The position numbers and the translations under genes are program-made. The notes below the pieces were generated by a model, which saw only the letters and a list, made by a program, of their open reading frames with translations, searched no databases and was not told the origin of the DNA. A DNA stretch of 64,000 nt from a virus: IMG/VR virus record IMGVR_UViG_3300013102_000008, positions 1-64,000 of that record. The stretch is one strand, 5' to 3'. Positions 3,400 through 60,743 of the stretch are shown one piece after another (within the stretch, counting starts at the first letter, position 1; every line of letters begins with the position of its first letter).

Positions 3400-6300
3400 T
3401 TACGTTGCCATTAATCGCGCCAATTGTCCGGCTACCTTCTGAATATCCGCTTCCTCGCGTATGTGGAACGTGTTACCGGTGAAAACGACCTGACCGCTGT
3501 TACCTCCGCCATTATTACGGTAATCCTTCGCTTCCTCACGGGGAAGTACCGCTTCACCGGAGTGTAACCGAGCAGGATAGTTATTGTATGGTACGTTGTC
3601 GATACCACCGGATTTACCGAGCGCTCTATACGAGAACGCTGAACTCGGAAGCTTATTTCCGGAGATTATATCGGTGGGAGATTTATATGGTGATCCGCCT
3701 TTAGCGGAAGGACCTGTAGAGGGTGCATTTGCTTCTTTATATTCCTTCGCAAAGGAAAGAGAGGCACCATCTTTACCGAGTACTGTTTGAAGGGTCTTTA
3801 CAGAAAAGATACCTTCCAGTATTCCTTCGCCAATTGCCGCACCCATTTTAATCGCGGCAGCAATTAAAGGTTGTGACGCCTGCATACCGGTCGCGAGCAT
3901 ATCAATAGCGGACTTAGCTATCGCAGATATCTTCGCGCTTCCGCCACCCGAAAGCCACTCGTTAAACGTCTTCATAATATCCTCAAATACGAAGCTAATT
4001 TTACTCTTCATATCCGGAAGTTTCTGAAACGCCGGATTATTCGTAAAGTGCTTATCGAGGTAACCGGAAGCTTTCGTAACCATACGCTCCATCGCCGCGG
4101 TAATCTGCGGACTATAGTCTTGAATTAGTTTACCAATACTCTCAGCGAATCGCGTAATCAATGGCATCGTCGGAAGCAACGCAGATATTTGTAACGTCTC
4201 CAACGCACCTCTAAGTTGTTCCACCGCGCCGCCCGCGCCTTCCATTTTCTTCTTAGCGACAGCTAACGCAGTAGTATTCGCCATTTCCCGATTAAACTTC
4301 GTTATTCCCTCTTCGCCTTCTTCGTAAAGGATATTCGCGGCTCTAATTGCGTCCGTACCGAACATCATCTTCAAGGTTAACTGGCGTTGTGCATTCGTCA
4401 TCTTGCTGAGTTTCGTGCGGAGGACTCCGGCAATACTAGACATGTCCTTAATGTTACCTGCGGAATCGTAGAATGCGTTGTTCATTCCATTAGTAGTAAA
4501 TCCGAGTCCATCGAATAACGCTCTCTGCGTTTTAGTAATCGGCTGCAACGTTAGTAACATCTGCTTAAGTGACGTACCTGCGTCTGACGATTTGAGTCCG
4601 TTGTTAGCGAACACACCGAGCGCTAGGTTCGTATCTTTAAATGATAGCCCACTACCCGCCGCCACCGCAGATACTTGCGCCAAGCTTTCCGCTAATTCGC
4701 TAACTCCAGTTGCGGAGGCGTTCGCTGTTCCCGCGAGTATATCCGCTGCTTGTGATGCGCCCATGCCGTCCTTCTTAAACGCGTTAAGCGCCGTAGACAT
4801 AATAACCGCGGATTCCTCTAAGCCAAGTCCGCCCGCTGTCGCAAGGTCAAGCGCTGCTCCGAGTGCGCCGGCTTCTACTTGCGCCGGTTTAAGTCCCGCC
4901 TTGAGAAGTTCCTCTATCGCTTTTCCAGCTTCTAATGCATTATCAGATTGTTACCGTAAAGGCTCTTTATCCTCTACTTCCGGGGCTTTCGCCGCATAAT
5001 AGTATGTCAGTTCATACTCGGCTCAGACTATATCTTCACCCTCGACATTGCTCGGTCGGGTGCGATGCGCTCGTGGGAATTTTGACTGTTCTAGTCTACT
5101 TTTCCTAGTCGTTACACCTTCCATATATTCCTATATGGCTTGGCTCGGTATTAGCATGTTTTTGGCGTAAAAAAAAATAAGCGTTTGTCACGCGCTTATT
5201 TCTAAAAAGTATTCAGTTAGCTGTTCTTCATTATTTTTAGTATATCCGTATATATCATGAAATTCCTTATGGCATATAGCGCATAATGTAGTTCCATTAT
5301 CTACGCATGTACGTAATTCTTCGTATTCTGAGTAATTATATATGTGGTGAGCAATCAAGTTTCCCCCTTGATTATTTCCACAACATTTACATTCGAAGTT
5401 ATCGCGTGTAAATACTTGTACTCGCCAATCCCTATAAGCAGGATACGACCTCTCAGAAATTCGTTCCTCATCACTTTTATTTGGGTCCCACCTTGCATGA
5501 TTAGAACCAACATATATTTCTGATCTTAACTGAGCCGCACACATTGATGAACAACATGGATTTGTCTTTACCTTCTGTTGGCTAGGCGTAGAGTGAAATA
5601 ACTTTCCACAATATGTGCAGTCTATAAAATTACTCAACTTGACTTGTCCCATATCTGAACGACTCTGAATAAGATAACATGAGTGTGAACAAAAGACTCT
5701 GTCACTTTTTATTTCTGATTGTTTCCTCTTAAATTCGATTCCACAAGTAATGCACTTACATATAATGGGCGGCTTATACTTGCTATTATCTTCCCCAATA
5801 AAAAATTTACCAAAGTTAGCTCGAAAGCACTCTTTAGTACAAAAGTGGTATTTATGCTTACTGAGCCTGTATGGTTGAATTTTTATATCTATGCCGCACC
5901 CACTACATAGTGCATCCACTCGATTGTAGTTTGGGTTTCCATCACCTAACATTAGTATCTTTTTATGTTTTGTTCTACATTCTCGGTTGCAGTACAAATT
6001 GATAAATTTAAGCACTTTAGACGGTATTGTATATACGTCCTTTTCACAATAAGCACAATTTACCTTTACTTTTATGCGTCGAGATTCACTAAAACAGGTA
6101 GCACTACAAAACTTAGTATTTTTCTTCGCGTTGAAAAACTCTTTGTTACAAACTTTACACGTTAAAAGATTCTGCTTAGCCCTATTAGCTAATCTACATT
6201 TACGGCAAGTATTCTCGAATCCATCACGTACGCTCTTACTTGGGGAAAAGCAAGAGATATCCAATTCTAATTTACACGATCTACATTCTTTATTCAAATT

Positions 6301-6936
6301 AAACACCCTCTGCAGTGGTTTCTCTGAGTATAATTGTGGAAAGCGCGATCAGAGTGCCGCGTTTGTCGTTTAGGCTCATGACTTCCTAAACTATTCCACA
6401 ATGACAGTATAGCATATAACTCGCCAAAAATTTAGCCTTCACCGAATTCACATCGTTATTTTTTCCGCAGATTACGCCGCGGTGAAGCATCTTCCATACT
6501 TCGTACGCGCACCTTCGAACAACGCGAGATTCTGCATCCGTTTCATCTCGTTAGCCGTCGCGCCCGTTAGCGCCTCAATCGATAGCATCTGCGCTTCGAA
6601 ATCCATCGCTTTCGTAACGGAGTCGCCGAGAAAGTCCGTAGCCATACGCGCCATATTGCCGATTCCGTTTATTGCCGCGTTACCTATTCCGAAGCCAAGT
6701 CCGCCGGCGAACGCGCCTTTCATACTACCGAATAGTGACTTCGATTGTTTTAACTCGCGGTTCATCTTCTCCGTATCATTTATGAACTTCCCCTGCGCGT
6801 TGCGGAGCCTTCCGGTAGAGTCGCGATAGTTATCCGTTGCCTTGCGTACGGCGTCCGTCTGCCTCGCTATCTTTTCTAGCGTACGAGAGGCTCCGTCATC
6901 CTTTATTCGTATCTTCCCTTGCAAGTCGAAGGACAT
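3400..6936 (-). CDS. Tail tape measure protein, interrupted by a group I intron
   Basis: Exon 1 is 6936-6498 and exon 2 is 4943-3400. Together they give 1983 nt, an intact 660-residue frame. Exon 1 has a short coiled N-terminus (residues 1-65) and a Gly/Ala hydrophobic stretch (residues 75-105), and ends in the TP901-type motif ALFEGARTKY. Exon 2 resumes with NALEAGKAIEELLKAG and then the family core (LDLATAGGLGLEESAVIMST, AADILAGTANASATGV, SFKDTNLALGVFANNGLKSS). Splicing restores the standard tape-measure core without gap or duplication. The protein is short for a myovirus tape measure, implying a short tail. The C-terminus is beta/disordered. Neighbours are the chaperone frameshift ORF and the LysM gene. 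Without splicing, exon 1 would end in a 9-codon tail. Confidence 0.9.
4944..6497 (-). mobile_element. Group I intron with HNH ORF
   Basis: This 1554-bp intron lies inside the tape measure gene. The 5' site follows T6498. The exon end GAAGU pairs with intron GCUUC a few bases inside, with the required U:G wobble at the splice site (P1). The 3' end is G4944, and exon 2 begins ATAATGCA. The 3' domain carries the group I P7 strands: GACTA (5110-5106) and the TAGTC in GAAGATATAGTC (5030-5026). Composition is AT-richer and poorer in CpG than the exons. An extended -10 (TGCTATACT, about 6417-6409) inside the intron may drive the endonuclease separately. The subgroup looks IA-like, which is inference. 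Confidence 0.88.
5188..6297 (-). CDS. Intron-encoded HNH endonuclease with Cys-rich zinc repeats
   Basis: A protein of about 369 residues. It has a ladder of CxxC zinc-knuckle/treble-clef modules from the N-terminus to about residue 260. A C-terminal HNH (His-Me finger) domain follows: FTRDNFECKCCG, then LIAHHIYNYSEYEELR, then TLCAICHKEFH. The family cuts intronless alleles and promotes homing of its intron. I prefer TTG 6297, eight bases after AGAGGG, over GTG 6306, which abuts that site. It lies wholly inside the intron and ends about 75 bp before the P7 core. Confidence 0.88.
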   Translation of the reverse strand: MNKECRSCKLELDISCFSPSKSVRDGFENTCRKCRLANRAKQNLLTCKVCNKEFFNAKKNTKFCSATCFSESRRIKVKVNCAYCEKDVYTIPSKVLKFINLYCNRECRTKHKKILMLGDGNPNYNRVDALCSGCGIDIKIQPYRLSKHKYHFCTKECFRANFGKFFIGEDNSKYKPPIICKCITCGIEFKRKQSEIKSDRVFCSHSCYLIQSRSDMGQVKLSNFIDCTYCGKLFHSTPSQQKVKTNPCCSSMCAAQLRSEIYVGSNHARWDPNKSDEERISERSYPAYRDWRVQVFTRDNFECKCCGNNQGGNLIAHHIYNYSEYEELRTCVDNGTTLCAICHKEFHDIYGYTKNNEEQLTEYFLEISA

Positions 6937-9165: not shown

Positions 9166-9588
9166 TTAAACTCTGCGTACGTTTACGTTGTCAATCTTCG
9201 GATAAACCGTTTGATCACGTGATTCCCTTACGCTCGTATCGAGTATGGCGATAATTGCGTACAGTCCGTTATCCGTTAGTGCCGGTTGTGATACGCTGTA
9301 CGCATTAACACGGATATGTCCGATTAACTCGTCCTGGTATATCGCGCGTCCTAACGCATCCATATCCGCGAGTATTGTATCTGGTCGAACCGTTACATGA
9401 ACGATTTGATATGCGCGATCTACGCGATAGTGATAACGTGTTTCCGTCGTCCTGTCTTCGTCAATCATGCGCACATAAAACGAGTTAACCGCCGGTTGTA
9501 ACGGTACTACTTGCTTACCGGTAATTGCCGTAGGAAACTGCGCTTTTATGAACGCTTCAATCATACCCATATCGCTTATAACGCTCAT
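9166..9588 (-). CDS. Tail completion/terminator protein
   Basis: A 140-residue protein between the gp10-like gene and the sheath. In PBSX-type clusters this position holds the tail terminator/completion protein (DUF-type, XkdJ position). 'AVNSFYVRMIDEDRTTETRYHYR' and a C-terminal beta strand resemble the gpU/gp17-like fold. Function is inferred from synteny. Confidence 0.65.
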   Translation of the reverse strand: MSVISDMGMIEAFIKAQFPTAITGKQVVPLQPAVNSFYVRMIDEDRTTETRYHYRVDRAYQIVHVTVRPDTILADMDALGRAIYQDELIGHIRVNAYSVSQPALTDNGLYAIIAILDTSVRESRDQTVYPKIDNVNVRRV

Positions 9589-10023
9589 TTACGTCAGCCC
9601 CTTTCGGCTTAACTCCGCTTGTATCGCGTTCTCAATTAGCGCGAACATCTTCGACTCTTTGTTATCCTTCGCTTGCGCTAGAAAGTCGAGTACCGTCCCG
9701 GATTCACGTGCTACCGCGCCTTTACTGCCGGCTACGTTATGCAGGTAATACGCGTAATTAAATCCGCGGTTAAATGCGTTAGCTACGACTGCCCCGTTGA
9801 TCTCTCCACCACTTAACTTAGGTGTAGTATGTTCGATACGTGCGCGTAGGTTACCGCCACGACGTCCCTTATAGCGTCCGATTGGCGCTAGGTTCGTAGC
9901 TTCGAGTTGCCACAGTTCGAGCGCGTCGTCCATTCCGTTAATAGCGCCTTGACTGACTGCATCCGACGCGTCTTCGAGTTTCCTCGCAAACTTACCGATG
10001 TCAAACGTAAACTCTACGGGCAT
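9589..10023 (-). CDS. HK97 gp10-like tail component
   Basis: A 144-residue protein with the gp10 family pattern: an N-terminal helix 'FARKLEDASDAVSQGAINGMDDAL', then 'EATNLAPIGRYKGRRGGNLRARIEH' with the Gly/Arg-rich loop, then a 'FNYAYYLHN' strand. These proteins act at the head-tail joint. SD GGAGGTG precedes ATG 10023. Confidence 0.8.
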   Translation of the reverse strand: MPVEFTFDIGKFARKLEDASDAVSQGAINGMDDALELWQLEATNLAPIGRYKGRRGGNLRARIEHTTPKLSGGEINGAVVANAFNRGFNYAYYLHNVAGSKGAVARESGTVLDFLAQAKDNKESKMFALIENAIQAELSRKGLT

Positions 10024-20684: not shown

Positions 20685-21566
20685 CTAATATGGAAGTTCC
20701 TCGTCGCTCCCGTCAAACGCCGATTCCGCCAGTCGTTTATTCTGCGTAAATTCATAACGTACGCTTTCCGTATACTCATCTTCCGTATATGACTTGCGGA
20801 ACATTACGTCAGGGTTCATTTTTATTACAATAACTCCGTATGATTCCGATCTCATAATAAATCCGTTTAGGCTTAGCTCGCGCATACTCCGACTGATTGT
20901 AGATCGTTCCTCGCCGAGTATCCGCGCTAAGTCCGATTGAACCATGTGATTCAACGCGTCAAAATCGTCGCCGTCCGGATTGTGACAAAGATAAAGGCGC
21001 TCATAGTGTATATACGGAATCATGCAGTACAGCAAACCCGCAGCTTGTACCGATAAGTTTTTAACGTCCGATCTCGTTTTAGTTTGGTATACCTTCGTAT
21101 ATCGACCGCCACTAAGCGATTTACCTATCGAATGATATTCCGCGCCAATCTCATATACTTTGCGCCTACCTTCGCGACTCTCCGTAAGTACTCCGCATGA
21201 TGTTAACGTGCTAATTAACGTAGCCGTCCATCGCGTAGCCTTTCCGATTGCTTTCGATATCTCAGCGGAACCCATACGTTTACCTTCGTAATATAACTTT
21301 CCGGATTTATCTAGTCGCATATACGGCAATAGCTTCATAACTGCGCCGAGTTCATTAAGCGCTAATAGTGCGGATAATTTACGTACTGGTTCGTGGTACG
21401 ACGCTACATAATGCCGAGGGTCCTTGTTAATAGCATCCTGGCGCTGTGCATACTCGCGCTTACGTGCGATGTTCTCTTCGGATTCGGTACGGTATCCATC
21501 GACGGGAACCGCCTGCATCCAGCGATCAACGTCGGTATCGAAATACGTATATATATCAGTTGTCAT
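20685..21566 (-). CDS. Two-winged-helix replication-initiator-like (RepL-like) protein
   Basis: A 293-residue protein with two helix-turn-helix regions: residues about 95-135 (MGSAEISKAIGKATRWTATLIS) and about 205-240 (VQSDLARILGEERSTISRSM). The arrangement resembles RepL/RepA-type plasmid initiators. The start at ATG 21566 follows GGAGGTGAGCGA and overlaps the previous stop. Direct repeats and the structured stretch lie right after its stop, as with initiators that bind adjacent iterons. A transcription regulator is the main alternative. Confidence 0.6.
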   Translation of the reverse strand: MTTDIYTYFDTDVDRWMQAVPVDGYRTESEENIARKREYAQRQDAINKDPRHYVASYHEPVRKLSALLALNELGAVMKLLPYMRLDKSGKLYYEGKRMGSAEISKAIGKATRWTATLISTLTSCGVLTESREGRRKVYEIGAEYHSIGKSLSGGRYTKVYQTKTRSDVKNLSVQAAGLLYCMIPYIHYERLYLCHNPDGDDFDALNHMVQSDLARILGEERSTISRSMRELSLNGFIMRSESYGVIVIKMNPDVMFRKSYTEDEYTESVRYEFTQNKRLAESAFDGSDEELPY

Positions 21567-21796
21567 TCGCTCACCTCCGGATTTAATGCGTGTATGAACG
21601 CTCTCGCAATAAGCGGAGCCTCTACGACTTCCCGGTAGTTTGCGAACCACTCTTTTACTTCAGGTATAATACAGATAGCGAAGTCGAAACGCTCGTCTTC
21701 GGTTAGTAAACGTAAATCATCGAAGTTGTACCCGAGTTGTTCCGTTATCATCTTTACGGAATAATTCGTATCGCGTCCGAAACTGTATGTCTTCAT
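21563..21796 (-). CDS. Hypothetical protein, 77 residues
   Basis: Overlaps both neighbours by 4 bp (ATGA type), so it is translationally coupled. It is acidic and helical ('LLTEDERFDFAICIIPEVKEWFANY'). Function unknown. Confidence 0.6.
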   Translation of the reverse strand: MKTYSFGRDTNYSVKMITEQLGYNFDDLRLLTEDERFDFAICIIPEVKEWFANYREVVEAPLIARAFIHALNPEVSE

Positions 21797-22913: not shown

Positions 22914-23551
22914 CCGTACGCCTCTCTTTCTTCCGGCGTCATCATACGCGTGTGTACCGGTTGCTCCCCTGTAAACGCCTCGTACGTAGCTTTACGCTCC
23001 TTATTACGCGTCTTAATTCCGGTGTCCATAAATATATTCTCGTTCTTACTACGTTCACGGCGGAGTGGTACGTTGTATGAGCGTCCATCCGTTCCGTAGT
23101 TTTGTGCAGCGCTTAGCTTTGCCTCTCCGGAATCCCCTTCGTATTTACGTTGATGATTTCCGTCAGTTCTACGCGCCATTTGTAACTCGCTTAGAAACGG
23201 ATATTCCGTATGACGCGATTTCCAACCGGTAGGATCCGTTAACTCCTCGTCCAATACTGCGTTACTCAATCGATCCAGCAGCGCAGTATTCAGCGTCAGC
23301 GACACCGGACGCTCACCGTTACCACCGCGTTCCTCCCATGCGTCAATAGTGCGTTGATTAACGTCAGCATGTGCCTTTACGTACTCGTCCGCTATTAGCT
23401 GGATCAGCGTCATACGTTCGGTGCGGTCGCCTACGTCATATTCCGCGCCATCGTAAGCGAATCGGATACTAGCGTCATTCTTGCGTCGTCTAATCGTAAT
23501 CTCTAAGTCCGCGACCAATACCGCGAATAGTTCCGTATATGTCATCGTCAT
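22898..23551 (-). CDS. Hypothetical protein, 217 residues
   Basis: Unrecognised. The N-terminal third is alpha/beta (residues 1-60). The middle has conserved-looking Glu/Arg segments, and the C-terminus ends with a basic region. It is coupled to the methyltransferase gene by TAATG at 23551 and to the GIY-YIG gene by a 16-bp overlap, so it probably works with one of them. Confidence 0.6.
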   Translation of the reverse strand: MTMTYTELFAVLVADLEITIRRRKNDASIRFAYDGAEYDVGDRTERMTLIQLIADEYVKAHADVNQRTIDAWEERGGNGERPVSLTLNTALLDRLSNAVLDEELTDPTGWKSRHTEYPFLSELQMARRTDGNHQRKYEGDSGEAKLSAAQNYGTDGRSYNVPLRRERSKNENIFMDTGIKTRNKERKATYEAFTGEQPVHTRMMTPEEREAYGCQLV

Positions 23552-52375: not shown

Positions 52376-53266
52376 TTATTTTTCACGAATTATTTCTGCA
52401 AGTGCCTCATTAATTTTACGTTCGATATTATGGTAATCGTCATATCTAATTCGTAATAATGGGATATTACTAATAGATGAATACTCGTCCTTACGCATGT
52501 CGTGTATTTGTTGACGTTTGAGTGCTCGAATCGCGTGTGCTTTACCTTTACCGGTGAAGTCTACCGGCTTGCTGTGATGTACACCGTCAAACTCAATAAA
52601 TAACGCGTGACTTCCGTCAGGATACGTTACTGCAAAGTCGTAAGATAATAATCCTCCGGAAATTCCTACTAGTTCTTCAATTTTCTCTTCGTGACTAAAC
52701 ATATATCCTAGAAATGTTAAGTAACTACGTATACGCCTTTCGCCTTTAGACATACTGCAGTAAGGACAGCGCGTTCCGCTAGCTACGCGGTATACTGTAG
52801 CACTCCATGAATGCTTACATTCTTCTTCATCACACATCCACCATACCTGATTCCCCGAGCTTGGCATTGTATTTTTCGGAGTGTTTTCTCCGTTTAGGGT
52901 AGGATGCCAAAGTTTAGATACTTCCGGATTTAGATTTGAGAGGTTATGTCCTTGTTCTGCCTTTGTTCTATTTGAGCGTTGTTTGGCGCACGACTTGCAC
53001 AAATCAAGTCCGCTTCTGCGGTTTCTTAATATATTGCTATGGGTTTGCTCCGGTACTTGTTTATGGCATATGTCACATACTTTCGTAAGCGTTATACAAC
53101 TGCACGGAGGAAGGTCTGCAACTTTGACGCGCATGGTGGTACCTCGCTGAACCGTTATTTTACCCCACTTCCCCATTTCCCGCGGGATTGGGTATCCTTT
53201 TGCTTCGAAGTGGACAACATTGTTAGGAGTTAACACGGTGTTGGTATATTCCTCTAGTATTGCCAT
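52376..53266 (-). CDS. Vsr-like endonuclease with zinc modules, copy 1
   Basis: A 296-residue protein. The N-terminal module has 'ITLTKVCDICHKQVPEQTHS'. A treble-clef pair follows ('CEHSW/CxxC' type: CDEEECKHSW ... CPYCSMSKGERRI). The Vsr/PD-(D/E)XK-like core is 'LFIEFDGVHHSKP'. A close paralogue lies at 59769-60674. Probably a freestanding homing-type endonuclease. ATG 53266 has GGTGG upstream. Confidence 0.75.
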   Translation of the reverse strand: MAILEEYTNTVLTPNNVVHFEAKGYPIPREMGKWGKITVQRGTTMRVKVADLPPCSCITLTKVCDICHKQVPEQTHSNILRNRRSGLDLCKSCAKQRSNRTKAEQGHNLSNLNPEVSKLWHPTLNGENTPKNTMPSSGNQVWWMCDEEECKHSWSATVYRVASGTRCPYCSMSKGERRIRSYLTFLGYMFSHEEKIEELVGISGGLLSYDFAVTYPDGSHALFIEFDGVHHSKPVDFTGKGKAHAIRALKRQQIHDMRKDEYSSISNIPLLRIRYDDYHNIERKINEALAEIIREK

Positions 53267-53355
53267 ACAAATCACCACCCTTCGTAATCAATTCGTAAAT
53301 ATCCGCCTACAATAATAATGTGCGCGAGTCCTCCGTAATCACACAAACGCGGAAA

Positions 53356-56993: not shown

Positions 56994-57038
56994 CTTACAT
57001 ATACATGTTGCCGGTCAGCACTCATCTCGCACACTTTT
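56994..57038 (-). promoter_or_regulatory. 45-bp regulatory element, copy 3 (HNH gene)
   Basis: AAAAGTGTGCG and GGCAACATGTATATGTAAG with the same spacing as the copies upstream of the sigma-like and dUTPase genes. It lies just upstream of the SD of the HNH gene. Confidence 0.65.
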
Positions 57039-57063
57039 GCGTAAATATATTTCCGCTGAACGC

Positions 57064-57094
57064 AAAAAAGCGCCCATCTCCGAAGAGTGAGCGC
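57064..57094 (-). terminator. Rho-independent terminator
   Basis: The minus strand GCGCTCACTC / GAGATGGGCGC with a UUCG loop, followed by TTTTTTG. It isolates the early operon from leftward transcription arriving from the par/ncRNA side. Confidence 0.82.
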
Positions 57095-57149
57095 ATTTAA
57101 TAGGAAGCTACGTGGATCGGCGGACGAATACGCTACACCTCCGAATACA

Positions 57150-57432
57150 TACGATTGATACCGCGATTAATATTAATAGTAACGGTAATATGCGTTTGAT
57201 TATGTGATTAATATCGTTGTTAATACTCCGATTAATCACGCAGTTAATCATAATGATAATACTATTATAATCATACGTTTGTTATTAATAACAATCATTT
57301 ACATAATTACAACGTTGATAATGTTATTAATATTATGACCAATACTACCATTAAATAACTATTAATTTTGTTGTAGTAATTAACATTATTTGTTATAATA
57401 TAATTAATACTAATATAGAGGAGATGATTGAT
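57150..57432 (+). promoter_or_regulatory. AT-rich par centromere-like array and parA leader
   Basis: A 280-bp AT-rich block of iterated ATTAAT/GTTAATAC-type words. It includes exact RTTRATAC matches at 57154-57161, 57219-57226 and 57403-57410, and a perfect palindrome TTGTTATTAATAACAA near 57280-57295. It ends in the parA SD (GAGGAG). Short repeats upstream of a ParA/ribbon-helix-helix operon typically form the centromere and promoter-operator. Confidence 0.65.
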
Positions 57433-58218
57433 ATGGCGGTAGTTTTGGCGGTATCCACGAATAAAGGCGGAGTATTAAAAACCTCGTTAACTACGAATCT
57501 CGCGGGCCTACTCGCGAAGGAATCGCGTGTACTCATCGTTGACGCGGATAATCAGGGGAATGTATCGTCGAGTTTCGGAAAGAATGCGGATCGGTATACG
57601 ACTAACTTATACGATGTACTCGTAAATGGAGTGCCGGCAGCGGACGCTATCGTTAACGTATATAAGAACATCGATATGCTACCGTCCAATGACGAAATGG
57701 CTTCGTTTGAGACGGATGTTATAACGGACATCGCGAAGTATAAGGATCTGTTCTTCCTCATGCGGAACACGCTCGCCAGTATACGCGATAGCTACGATTA
57801 CATCCTCGTAGATACTCCGCCTAATCTCGGGTTAGTTACGGGTAACGTGTTAACTTTCGCAGATCGCGTTTTAATACCGTTTCAGCCGGAGACATATTCG
57901 CAGCGGTCGCTAGTTAAGGTATTAAAGGCGATTGCTGGCGTACGGTTATCGCGCAACCCGGAACTGGCGATACTTGGCGTAGTGGGAACGCTAGTGGATT
58001 CCAGGACATCGCTACATGCCGAGTTGTTATCGGGATTACGTAAGAAATGCTTAGCGGAGGATATAAAGTGTTTTGATACGGTGATACCGCGATCCATACG
58101 ATATGCATCTGCGGTCGCATACGATGAGTTACCGGCTACACTTGCGGAAGCTAGGCCCGCGTTAATTAAAGCATATTCCGATTTACTAGCGGAAATAAAG
58201 GAGGAGTTAATGTGGTAA
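57433..58218 (+). CDS. parA: ParA-type partition ATPase
   Basis: A 261-residue ParA without an N-terminal HTH (type Ib). The deviant Walker A is 'STNKGGVLKTSLTTNLA', followed by 'RVLIVDADNQGNVSS' and 'YDYILVDTPPNLG'. ATG 57433 is preferred because GAGGAG lies nine bases upstream. The ATG at 57424 overlaps that SD. The stop overlaps the next gene's GTG. It segregates a low-copy replicon. Confidence 0.92.
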   Translation: MAVVLAVSTNKGGVLKTSLTTNLAGLLAKESRVLIVDADNQGNVSSSFGKNADRYTTNLYDVLVNGVPAADAIVNVYKNIDMLPSNDEMASFETDVITDIAKYKDLFFLMRNTLASIRDSYDYILVDTPPNLGLVTGNVLTFADRVLIPFQPETYSQRSLVKVLKAIAGVRLSRNPELAILGVVGTLVDSRTSLHAELLSGLRKKCLAEDIKCFDTVIPRSIRYASAVAYDELPATLAEARPALIKAYSDLLAEIKEELMW

Positions 58219-58631
58219 GAAAACGTAAGACTGCGATGGATTTCGATGCGGTTGCGGATAGTAATGTAATTAATATTGTACGCGAGGATATCGTTGATAC
58301 TGAGGATAATACGGATACTGACGTTGCTAATAAGATTAATACTACAGATGATACCGTTGTTGATACGGAGATTGTTATCAAAGATGAGAGTAAGGTTGAT
58401 ACTAAGCCTATAATTAATATTGATCACAACGTTAATCATAATAACGCTATCGACCACATACTTAATAATGAGCGCGTGAAATCTACGCGTGTTCAGCGTG
58501 GTTTATACTTGGATCGCGATATCGATGCGGTGCTGAGCCGGTTGTTGAAGAAAGGCGGGAAGGGCGCTAAGTCCGATATTATTAACGATTTGCTACGCGC
58601 TGCTTTTGTGGATAGAGGATTATTAAAGTAA
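58212..58631 (+). CDS. Ribbon-helix-helix partition partner (ParB/ParG-like)
   Basis: A 139-residue protein. The C-terminal 55 residues form a ribbon-helix-helix ('TRVQRGLYLDRDIDAVLSRL', 'KSDIINDLLRAAFVDRGL'). Residues 10-85 are disordered and Asp/Asn/Thr/Val/Ile-rich. The codons for this region contain four RTTRATAC words (58293, 58335, 58359, 58395) like those upstream of parA. GTG 58212 overlaps the parA end, with GGAGGAG upstream. It binds the centromere and stimulates ParA. Confidence 0.8.
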   Translation: MVRKRKTAMDFDAVADSNVINIVREDIVDTEDNTDTDVANKINTTDDTVVDTEIVIKDESKVDTKPIINIDHNVNHNNAIDHILNNERVKSTRVQRGLYLDRDIDAVLSRLLKKGGKGAKSDIINDLLRAAFVDRGLLK

Positions 58632-58645
58632 TACCGCTGTGGATA

Positions 58646-58681
58646 AGTAGCTTAAGGAGTTTCGCGCTTAAGTTACTTTTT
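58646..58681 (+). terminator. Terminator of the par operon
   Basis: AGTA-CTTAAG paired with CTTAAG-TACT, followed by a TTTTTG run, 15 bp after the partner-gene stop. Confidence 0.78.
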
Positions 58682-58689
58682 GAGTTCTA

Positions 58690-59430
58690 ACATATCCGCC
58701 TTCGGCGGTTCCACTCCGTTTGCTTCACGGAATTAATAACGAATAACACGTTATCAATGCCGATCGCTTCACGTAGCGGCTATTCTTTCTACCGCTTACT
58801 ACATCCTCTTTTATTTATCTCTATAGTAAAACTTTTGCTTGACGGTGTAGGTCTAAACCTTTACGCTTTATGGCTCTGATTAGGAAATGGACATAGGTTT
58901 GCCCTTACATGCGACCATAAAGCATTATTGCTTCAAGATCACACATAAGAGCAAACCATACATTCAATACGCCCCGTAGGTCGTCATGAGGTTTCTGTAT
59001 CTATACCCGGTCGCAGTTTTTACACCGCCAATACCTTGATCCCATCAGATCTTCCCAATGGTTGCGTCTCCGCTTGGTATTGTGCCGCGACCTCCTCTCG
59101 GAAGTAGCAAGATCGTCCTCTCCTGACCGCACACCGTCACCGTTAGTCACACTCGGGCGTGGGTATAGTTACGCCTTTAATGAGTGTACGTTAGGATTGT
59201 ATTGTTTGCGGCGGTCCCTAACTTGACCCTTAGCGGTTTTTACCGTGTTCTCGCTGCACTCCACGTTCGGCGCTATCCTATTTTTGCAATAGGAAAGTAG
59301 GCCCTCGGCATCTCGCTTTTTCGCGAAATCCGGAGCATCGCCGGTTATTTAGTTTTAGTATGTAAGTAAACGAAAAGGAGCCTCGATCCTATTCGCGTGA
59401 TAACGAAGGAATCGAGGCTCCACTTTTATA
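58690..59430 (-). ncRNA. Candidate large ornate structured RNA (GOLLD/ROOL-class size)
   Basis: No gene fits this 740-bp stretch, yet the minus-strand RNA is densely structured. Helices visible: UCCUAU/AUAGGA (59294-59289 with 59281-59276); ACACUC/GAGUGU with inner GGCGU/ACGCC (59187-59149), whose loop CUAUACCC pairs with GGGUAUAG at 59008-59001; GGUCGC/GCGACC (59092-59087 with 59014-59009) enclosing CAAUACC/GGUAUUG; CUUCC-GAGA-GGAGG, a GNRA hairpin (59104-59091); a 12-bp GGUUUGCUCUUA/UAAGGGCAAACC helix interleaved with CCAUAAAGC/GCUUUAUGG (a pseudoknot); and three 3' hairpins (58690-58800). Strand is set by U:G pairs that would be A:C on the plus strand. Ends and class are uncertain. Confidence 0.62.
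59376..59420. terminator. Long hairpin at 5' side of the large RNA
   Basis: Near-perfect GGAGCCTCGAT / ATCGAGGCTCC hairpin with short T-runs on both sides. It may be a bidirectional terminator or the 5' stem of the large RNA. Confidence 0.55.
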
Positions 59431-59481
59431 ATAACATTTATCACATATAACGTTGTCCGTAGACAATAATAATGTTATACT
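59430..59481. promoter_or_regulatory. Divergent promoters sharing an inverted repeat
   Basis: Plus strand: TTGTCC (59453-59458), 17-bp spacer, TATACT (59476-59481). Minus strand: TTGTCT (59466-59461), then an extended -10-like TGTGATAAA 18 bp on. The two -35 elements form the inverted repeat TTGTC-TACG-GACAA. They would drive the small RNA rightward and the large RNA leftward. Confidence 0.55.
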
Positions 59482-59487
59482 AGATTT

Positions 59488-59595
59488 AGAAAGTCATTGT
59501 TTTAGTGCGCCCGTTTCTTGTCCGTTTGGCGGATACGATACGGCACAGGGTTGGTAGCCCGAGCCGCACTTGAAACAGTGGCTTAATCTTTTTGT
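59488..59595 (+). ncRNA. Candidate small structured RNA, about 107 nt
   Basis: Starts about 7 bp after the TATACT -10. The ends pair as a 17-bp stem: AAGUCAUUGUUUUAGUG (59491-59507) with CACUUGAAACAGUGGCUU (59567-59584), followed by CTTTTTG. Inner hairpins are UCCG/CGGA and CGGC..GGG/CCC..GCCG. Wobble pairs in the outer stem fit the plus strand only. No known family is recognised. Confidence 0.55.
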
Positions 59596-59702
59596 CTAAC
59601 TTATGAATCTAGCATAACACAGTCTAGTAATTAGTGGAAGATAAAGTTATACACAATGTGCGTAAAAACTCGGAATAAGAAAAATCAACCTGTGGATAAA
59701 CG

Positions 59703-59752
59703 AAAAAAGGTGCAGACTCAACGAAAGTTACCTCCGCGAATCTGCACCTTTT
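59703..59752 (-). terminator. Rho-independent terminator after Vsr-like gene
   Basis: The minus strand AAAGGTGCAGA ... TCTGCACCTTTTTT. Eleven-pair stem and T6 run, just after the stop at 59769. It ends the lysis-side transcript. Confidence 0.85.
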
Positions 59753-59768
59753 ATATTTACTTTACCCT

Positions 59769-60674
59769 CTAACATGGTATCTGATCCCCGCGGAGTACCT
59801 TTGCCAGTGCTTCATTAATTAATCGTTCTGTGTCGTCAATGTCCGTATATGCGATGCGGAGTAATGGGATGTTGTGGAGACGAGCATATTCGTTTTTCCT
59901 GCGGTCGTGTGTTTGTTGGATGCGGAATTGTTCGAGCGCGCTACCCACACCTTCTCCGGCAAAGTCCGTAGGTTCGAAATGGCCGATCCCGTCAAACTCT
60001 ATAAGGAGTGCCACGTATCCGTTATCATATTTGATAGCAGCGTCAAATCTGAGGTCACCTCCACCTTTTCCTGTAAGACCATGCATAGTCTCCTCAAGCG
60101 AGTAATTATAACCGAGGAATTGAAGGTACTCACGAATTTTACGCTCACCTTTCGAAAGTGAACACGATGGACAACGGGTGCCACGTGTTACATGCTGAAC
60201 AAGCGCTCTCCACTCGTAATTGCATCCATCTTCATTACACATCCACCATCGCTTACGGTTTGATCCTGGAACTATTTCGTCCGGCTTGAGCGATCCGTTT
60301 AATGTGGGGTGCCAGAGCGCAACTACTTCGGGGTGCTTAGTTACAAGGTTGTTTCCGGATTTCGCTTTACGAAGTGACATCGCGTGCTGTGCGCAGGGTA
60401 GGCATCTGTCAACTCCATCGACATCGCGGCTGCGGAGAATGATCTTATAGTACTGCTCCCGCGTGTGTCCGCCACAATCGTCGCAAATCTTCGTCAATCG
60501 TACGTCGCCCCCAACGGTCAAATCGATAATATTAACGGTAATAACGGCACCTCGCACTATACTCATTCTCCCCCGCGAGTCTTTTTTCCTAGGGATATGA
60601 TACCCAAGCGACTCATAATGTGAAATATTACGTGCACCCAACGTAATCTCCACTTCCGTCTCCAATATCGCCAC
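59769..60674 (-). CDS. Vsr-like endonuclease with zinc modules, copy 2
   Basis: A 301-residue paralogue of the protein at 52376-53266, with the same domain order. It has an N-terminal module with 'VRLTKICDDCGGHTREQ', a treble-clef pair (CNEDGCNYEW ... CPSCSLSKGERKI), and the nuclease core 'ALLIEFDGIGHFEP'. Where copy 1 has GVHH this copy has GIGH, so one His differs. ATG 60674 follows GGAGG. Likely a mobile freestanding nuclease gene. Confidence 0.75.
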   Translation of the reverse strand: MAILETEVEITLGARNISHYESLGYHIPRKKDSRGRMSIVRGAVITVNIIDLTVGGDVRLTKICDDCGGHTREQYYKIILRSRDVDGVDRCLPCAQHAMSLRKAKSGNNLVTKHPEVVALWHPTLNGSLKPDEIVPGSNRKRWWMCNEDGCNYEWRALVQHVTRGTRCPSCSLSKGERKIREYLQFLGYNYSLEETMHGLTGKGGGDLRFDAAIKYDNGYVALLIEFDGIGHFEPTDFAGEGVGSALEQFRIQQTHDRRKNEYARLHNIPLLRIAYTDIDDTERLINEALAKVLRGDQIPC

Positions 60675-60743
60675 ATGATCTCCTCCGTTTCTCCATCGTT
60701 TAATATATACTAGACCCGTGAATCTGCGCCTTATCTTCGTTAC

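Follow-up and report, generated by a model that had tools for sequence, protein, structure and literature searches.

Introduction

ROOL and GOLLD occur in habitats comparable to those of the RNA family described here, and no function has been assigned to them (PMC12286853). In pIP501-type plasmids, a long leader with an antisense promoter midway and an inverted repeat with a T run is found before rep (PMC5703833). The regulation of ColE1 by RNA I and RNA II is comparable in its logic to that proposed below (PMC11012335). EGFOA (RF02955) is a described RNA for which we found no function in the literature searched. The loop of ColE1 RNA I is GUUGGUAG.

Here we analysed 64,000 nucleotides of viral DNA (the window; positions 1 to 64,000 of IMG/VR record IMGVR_UViG_3300013102_000008), part of a 65.5-kb virus record with tailed-phage structural genes, which were named from sequence. 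A preliminary description had proposed a pseudoknotted RNA in gene-free DNA at 58690-59430, a member of GOLLD or ROOL or of a new class. By computation we establish an RNA at this locus, its strand, its pseudoknot, its family and a layout that recurs among its relatives.

Results

The minus strand encodes a large structured RNA

A non-coding pseudoknotted RNA is encoded by the minus strand at about 58,835-59,354. When 58690-59360 was folded and compared with dinucleotide shuffles, the minus strand gave -235 kcal/mol (z -7.0), whereas the plus strand gave -190 kcal/mol (z -2.7). Helices are maintained via G-U pairs on one strand. The proposed minus-strand origin of the RNA was thus borne out, and so was the gene-free character of the locus: the small ORF that follows parA ends at 58631, another gene ends at 59769, and no substantial ORF lies between these positions. 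The ORFs on the RNA strand of the core are all short (at most 49 aa), none of them common to the relatives. The proposed span does contain the RNA and has to be redrawn. The conserved RNA runs from about 59354 to 58835, its control region (promoters, antisense RNA and attenuator) reaches upstream to about 59,620, and 58690-58830 shows no conservation. The elements of the RNA are as follows (loci of relatives carry L numbers).

58835-59354, minus strand: conserved core of the large non-coding RNA, from the 5' motif AACUAAAUA to the 3' motif GUCAAG; based on the folding z of -7.0, homology to L002, the covariance-model match at 58995-59181 and the 5' and 3' motifs in common
59264-59344, minus strand: 5' domain, in which P1 (59335-59344 with 59264-59273) encloses hairpin P2 (59304-59335) and hairpin P3 (59274-59296) with the conserved UUUCCUAUUG; based on topology and covariation
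59243-59266, minus strand: hairpin P4, ACGUGG...CACG; in relatives the sequence differs and the pairing is always kept (registered by hand)
59156-59175, minus strand: hairpin H4, GGCGU-AACUAUACCC-ACGCC, with the loop as one side of the pseudoknot
59085-59110, minus strand: GNRA-capped hairpin, with ACUUCC-GAGA-GGAGGU inside this span, read from the sequence
58997-59008, minus strand: pseudoknot partner GGGUAUAG(AUAC), forming an 8-bp helix with the H4 loop about 160 nt apart
58896-58957, minus strand: long terminal hairpin (inverted repeat I1), constant in position and variable in sequence in the alignments of relatives

The pseudoknot is kept by compensatory changes

A covariance model was built from 14 relatives of two subtypes, with the window left out. 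The main component of their consensus structure is a helix that joins a hairpin loop to a segment about 160 nt further downstream. Six of the eight pairs of this helix are double-substituted and none is broken, so it is kept by compensatory changes. In the window, CUAUACCC pairs with GGGUAUAG; the relatives have CCCUACCC/GGGUAGGG, CCAUGCCC/GGGCAUGG, CCAUGCUC/GAGCAUGG, CCUAUUC/GAAUAGG, CCUUGUUU/AAACAAGG or CCUGUUC/GAACAGG. The preliminary description had read this contact as eight bases paired with a segment about 150 nt away, which our results confirm at a slightly larger distance. They also confirm its GNRA hairpin, where relatives belonging to the same subtype have GAAA or GCAA in place of the GAGA loop. 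The interleaved 12-bp/9-bp pseudoknot that it had proposed survives in part. The 12-bp arm is the covarying loop helix; the 9-bp arm (59131-59139 with 58840-58848) is present in the window by sequence, but it lacks support because the relatives showed no equivalent. The structure is still a pseudoknot, because the H4 hairpin stem and the loop helix cross.

Nine relatives of subtype A1, aligned and folded with RNAalifold, gave 103 pairs, of which 32 retain their pairing despite substitutions at both positions. The P1/P2/P3 topology of the 5' domain was obtained in independent folds of many divergent relatives, and its helices covary as registered by hand. Since the hand-registered helix set is biased, unbiased support comes from the A1 alignment, the 14-relative consensus and the covariance model.

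The RNA belongs to a family of mobile elements

The 14-relative model matched the window on the minus strand at 58995-59181 over the full model length, with 23.1 bits and an E-value of 7e-5. The same model matched a Levilactobacillus plasmid (E 6e-7). A record-wide search with a looser, pre-filtered first look did not report the window match. The match of the window to the family model is clear but modest. The H4 loop pseudoknot and a GGUYYGGNGG motif mark the family, and the window shows the model match and the covarying loop helix. A conserved ornate RNA family of mobile elements is now defined by this model.

Identity with ROOL, GOLLD, OLE, HEARO or raiA was rejected, as Rfam gave no match at the gathering threshold in the whole window and no match to any of these classes at E ≤ 10 in 57000-60700. 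Membership of GOLLD or ROOL therefore falls, while the other half of the original proposal, a new class, could hold. The EGFOA covariance model also found no match in the window.

A Blast search against plasmids returned a single homologue, which aligned in part (about 150 nt, 76% identity) and lies in a gap without annotation on an 8.3-kb Paenibacillus plasmid. From this homologue, a conserved leader element led to Paenibacillus and Brevibacillus plasmids and to the Brevibacillus phage Jenst, and the leader pattern then led to 11 new viral contigs. The RNA bodies of these contigs led in turn to plasmids of Peribacillus, Pseudalkalibacillus, Planococcus, Bacillus and Levilactobacillus. Relatives are found in plasmids or prophages of Paenibacillus, Bacillus, Peribacillus, Planococcus and Levilactobacillus. 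Two scans were discarded: the pattern scan of genome contigs gave 24 chance coding matches, none in Bacillota, and the viral scans for CGAACGTG... (L005, L030-L032) gave chance coding matches only. The Levilactobacillus brevis plasmid NZ_CP019738.1 (L075) has two matches to the RNA model, at 23064-23190 and 9583-9709.

Genomic surroundings of the RNA

The following features flank the RNA in the window.

57424-58218, plus strand: parA (Pfam AAA_31, 8e-43), convergent with the RNA
58212-58631, plus strand: small ORF downstream of parA, with no Pfam match, convergent with the RNA
58607-58615: DnaA box with one mismatch
58638-58646, minus strand: perfect DnaA box TTATCCACA, beyond the 3' end of the RNA
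59691-59699: second perfect DnaA box, on the other side of the RNA

The DnaA boxes near the RNA are suggestive only, with four perfect boxes in the window in total. Since ParA is present and no integrase or resolvase match was found in the window record, the virus is probably a phage-plasmid. Its replication set in the window comprises DNA polymerase A, a DnaB-type helicase, a loader and a Toprim primase, and a winged-helix protein (20685-21650) could be an initiator.

Two related proteins of about 300 aa (52376-53278 and 59769-60674) have a C-terminal nuclease-like part, with a DUF4379 zinc finger in the second, and are probably homing-type endonucleases; the gene of the second lies just upstream of the RNA locus. 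Elsewhere in the window, a tape-measure-like gene seems to be split into minus-strand ORFs (6472-6936 and 3400-4800) with an HNH-type endonuclease ORF (5188-6306) between them. This is possibly an intron or a homing insertion; the region gave no Rfam intron match at the gathering threshold.

The preliminary description had regarded the position beside parA and a small RNA as new. Both do adjoin the RNA. The position is not unique, however, since ParA also adjoins relatives in six plasmids when EGFOA-type bodies are included (P. urinalis, B. borstelensis, P. brasilensis, P. peoriae, B. paramobilis and L. brevis). The neighbours of the RNA in the smallest plasmids are MerR/HTH-type genes (MerR/DUF3967-like). 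Among the viral members, 8 of the 11 records have an integrase and none has ParA. Several viral members sit beside integrase or lysis genes, with little or no room for an antisense leader.

A predicted antisense RNA and an attenuator-like hairpin precede the RNA

The region upstream of the RNA contains the following elements.

59377-59421, minus strand: terminator-like hairpin with a U run (inverted repeat I7), the proposed attenuator, between the control region and the RNA
59453-59481, plus strand: promoter of the antisense small RNA, TTGTCC-17-TATACT with an extended -10, from the promoter scan; an equivalent promoter was read in L002
59487-59598, plus strand: predicted antisense small RNA with loop GUUGGUAG and a hairpin with a U run at its end, from folds; layout conserved in L002, L038, L039 and L042
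59609-59619, minus strand: extended -10 TGTTATGCT of the proposed large-RNA promoter, an inverted copy of the antisense promoter (inverted repeat I3)

The small RNA, which the plus-strand promoter would yield at a length of about 110 nt, would be an antisense RNA that faces the presumed 5' end of the large-RNA transcript, a relation the preliminary description had not seen. The two promoter-like sites upstream of the window RNA are convergent and are inverted copies of each other; the proposed large-RNA promoter is a weak consensus match and is absent from the promoter-scan list. In L002, L038, L039 and L042 the antisense RNA has a closing stem GUUUC/GAAAC with two hairpins, and L070 has a two-hairpin version. 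Terminator-like hairpins with a T run equivalent to that of the window were found in L002, L003, L035-L039, L042, L070 and L073. The order of antisense RNA, attenuator-like hairpin and RNA is the same in the window, L002, L038 and L039. The Planococcus locus L070 keeps the antisense RNA, the terminator and the RNA and lacks the P1-P3 leader. On the 3' side of the RNA, L002 and L039 have a common block, GAACCGAGG..ATTGTGG..TGGTTTT..TTGTCCA, possibly representing two inverted, degenerate DnaA boxes or some other origin element.

The leader is common to rep-like genes and to EGFOA plasmids

In phage Jenst (L040), a leader hairpin with UUUCYUAUUG stands immediately before the annotated replication gene, and in two Brevibacillus plasmids (L003, L041) it stands immediately before rep-like genes. 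The hairpin might act in antitermination; no clear antiterminator emerged from the leader sequence. Upstream of the rep leader in the B. borstelensis plasmid L041, a BsrG (RF01412) type I toxin-antitoxin RNA was found at 2660-2919. The leader hairpin occurs twice in tandem before the RNA in the P. larvae plasmids L035 and L036 (~2880, ~3030), and P. urinalis L074 also has two copies (~3738, ~4008).

The bodies of several relatives match EGFOA, namely those of L035-L038 and L042/L055 among the plasmids found by the leader and of L048 and L049 among the viral loci found by the body pattern. On the 3' side of the plasmid EGFOA RNAs come a conserved G-rich box GGGGUGGGNGUGGGG, a short hairpin and then two DnaA-like boxes in inverted orientation, spaced 27-28 bp apart; L066 and L074 have the same 3' elements. 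These elements may mark an origin that contains a stretch prone to R-loops. The window has no such G-rich box, and the window-family model had no match in the EGFOA plasmids. The window RNA and the EGFOA plasmids thus have the leader and the position in common, and homology of their bodies is not supported by a model match. In the 15.1-kb P. durus plasmid (L042/L046), two ORFs lie between the antisense/terminator/leader module and the EGFOA RNA, so a possible protein gene separates the leader from the RNA.

Small plasmids with the RNA and no recognisable Rep

The P. polymyxa plasmid pPpR531 (L044, NZ_CP097768.1, 9,735 bp) is a head-to-tail dimer of 4,867/4,868 bp. Of its five small protein genes, the two largest gave no match to any replication family. 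RUD330 (8.3 kb), pYT9B (9.7 kb) and a 16-kb Peribacillus plasmid likewise carry the RNA and no recognisable Rep, as does the 16.9-kb P. peoriae plasmid with the related 3' elements. The only Rep candidate of the 7.6-kb Planococcus plasmid is a 152-aa HTH_36 protein. Six-frame searches for Rep_3, Rep_1, Rep_trans and HTH_36 gave nothing convincing in two P. polymyxa plasmids, RUD330, P. peoriae and Peribacillus, which leaves room for a Rep of an unrecognised family. The RepA_N search was uninformative, as its control gave no match anywhere. A rep gene accompanies the RNA in three plasmids: those of P. urinalis and P. brasilensis (both Rep_3-type) and, as annotated, that of Pseudalkalibacillus. 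GC-skew minima lie near the RNA in some plasmids only.

Discussion

The RNA as a possible replication determinant

Our preferred reading, which we hold tentatively, is that the RNA could well be a replication determinant similar to ColE1 RNA II and under antisense control. In the plasmid members it stands in the usual position of the rep gene, beside parA or an HTH gene. Since no replication-protein gene could be recognised in some small carrier plasmids, the RNA may help to start DNA copying. The same reading is favoured by the small RNA plasmids (monomer 4.9-16.9 kb) without recognisable Rep, by an antisense/attenuator layout that resembles pIP501-type rep control, and by the leader that also precedes rep-like genes (L003, L041, L040). 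Further support comes from the adjoining parA in the window and six other plasmids, from the G-rich box and DnaA-like box pair after the RNA in the EGFOA-cored group, and from the antisense loop, which equals that of ColE1 RNA I.

Other observations weaken it: three RNA plasmids also carry rep, and the window phage encodes a polymerase, helicase, loader and primase of its own together with the winged-helix candidate initiator. Moreover, the window lacks the G-rich box, and only some of the plasmids have a GC-skew minimum close to the RNA. Nor is the RNA tied to plasmid life, because integrase records prevail among the viral relatives and none has ParA.

We infer every step of the replication function. 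The large-RNA transcript would start at about 59,600 on the minus strand, and its first ~110 nt would be complementary to the antisense RNA of the opposite strand. Binding of the antisense RNA would favour the terminator hairpin at 59,421-59,377. Read-through past the hairpin would give the pseudoknotted RNA, whose 3' end points to the DnaA boxes and parAB. The full-length RNA would then act as an initiator or a primer, for example in an RNA-DNA hybrid extended by host (or phage) DNA polymerase I. A wider and slightly less secure proposal is that a Bacillota plasmid and phage-plasmid family may replicate without an initiator protein: the large pseudoknotted RNA would initiate or prime, antisense-induced attenuation would set the copy number, and rep and the RNA would be interchangeable behind one leader.

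Alternative explanations

An ornate RNA of the ROOL/GOLLD kind is the leading rival, which we consider rather unlikely. The RNA would then be abundant and have a structural or scaffolding role (homo-oligomer, nanocage or RNP) that serves the mobile element otherwise than in replication, and the antisense module would only set its dose. Its size, complexity and pseudoknotting agree with this, as do the members in integrating prophages beside integrase or lysis genes and the comparable habitats of ROOL and GOLLD, which likewise lack an assigned function (PMC12286853). However, no covariance-model match to ROOL, GOLLD or OLE was found, small plasmids without recognisable Rep keep the RNA, its leader is common to rep mRNAs and the antisense/attenuator layout is typical of replication control.

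It is improbable that the RNA is a regulator of plasmid maintenance, which would control parAB or incompatibility as an antisense decoy or target while an unrecognised winged-helix or MerR-like protein drives replication. The neighbourhood fits, with parA adjoining in seven records and MerR/DUF3967-like genes in the smallest plasmids, but several hundred conserved structured nucleotides far exceed what an antisense target needs, and the prophage members have no parA.

An element acting as DNA (single-strand origin, oriT or replication origin) would suit the plasmid context and the nearby DnaA boxes; this is very improbable given the strongly strand-asymmetric folding, the G-U pairs that keep helices on one strand, and the promoter and antisense layout. 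Least credible is a remnant of a self-splicing or mobile RNA (group I/II intron, HEARO or IStron type), suggested by a large ornate RNA in a phage with homing-type endonuclease genes, as Rfam gave no intron or HEARO match at E 10, the RNA is not within a gene and no linked ORF is conserved among the relatives.

If the RNA is a replication determinant, RNA replicons that need no initiator would also occur in Bacillota, there with an unrelated and far more elaborate RNA; we found no report of such an RNA replicon in the literature searched. This would explain the plasmids of these genera that seem to have no replicon, suggest a role for EGFOA and open the way to compact RNA-controlled vectors for Paenibacillus and related hosts. 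Even if the replication reading is wrong, a model-defined ornate RNA family in small plasmids and prophages is now testable.

Comparison with known systems

ROOL and GOLLD resemble the window RNA in being large, ornate and pseudoknotted and in occurring in phages and prophages. They differ from it in the covariance models, which do not match, and in their gene neighbourhood. In plasmids that share the leader element and the parA neighbourhood, EGFOA forms the core; unlike the window RNA, it is not matched by the window-family model, nor does its own model match the window.

Rep attenuation in pIP501 and pT181 has a similar long leader, midway antisense promoter and terminator-like inverted repeat before the effector (PMC5703833). 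In contrast, the effector here is a structured RNA and not a rep ORF, although three leader relatives do precede rep. In ColE1, as is proposed here, an untranslated transcript of several hundred nucleotides is complementary over its 5' ~110 nt to an antisense RNA with the loop GUUGGUAG, and the plasmids encode no recognisable initiator protein. Unlike in ColE1, a terminator-like attenuator lies between the antisense target and the RNA body, the sequence and fold of the body are unrelated, the hosts are Bacillota and priming is our proposal.
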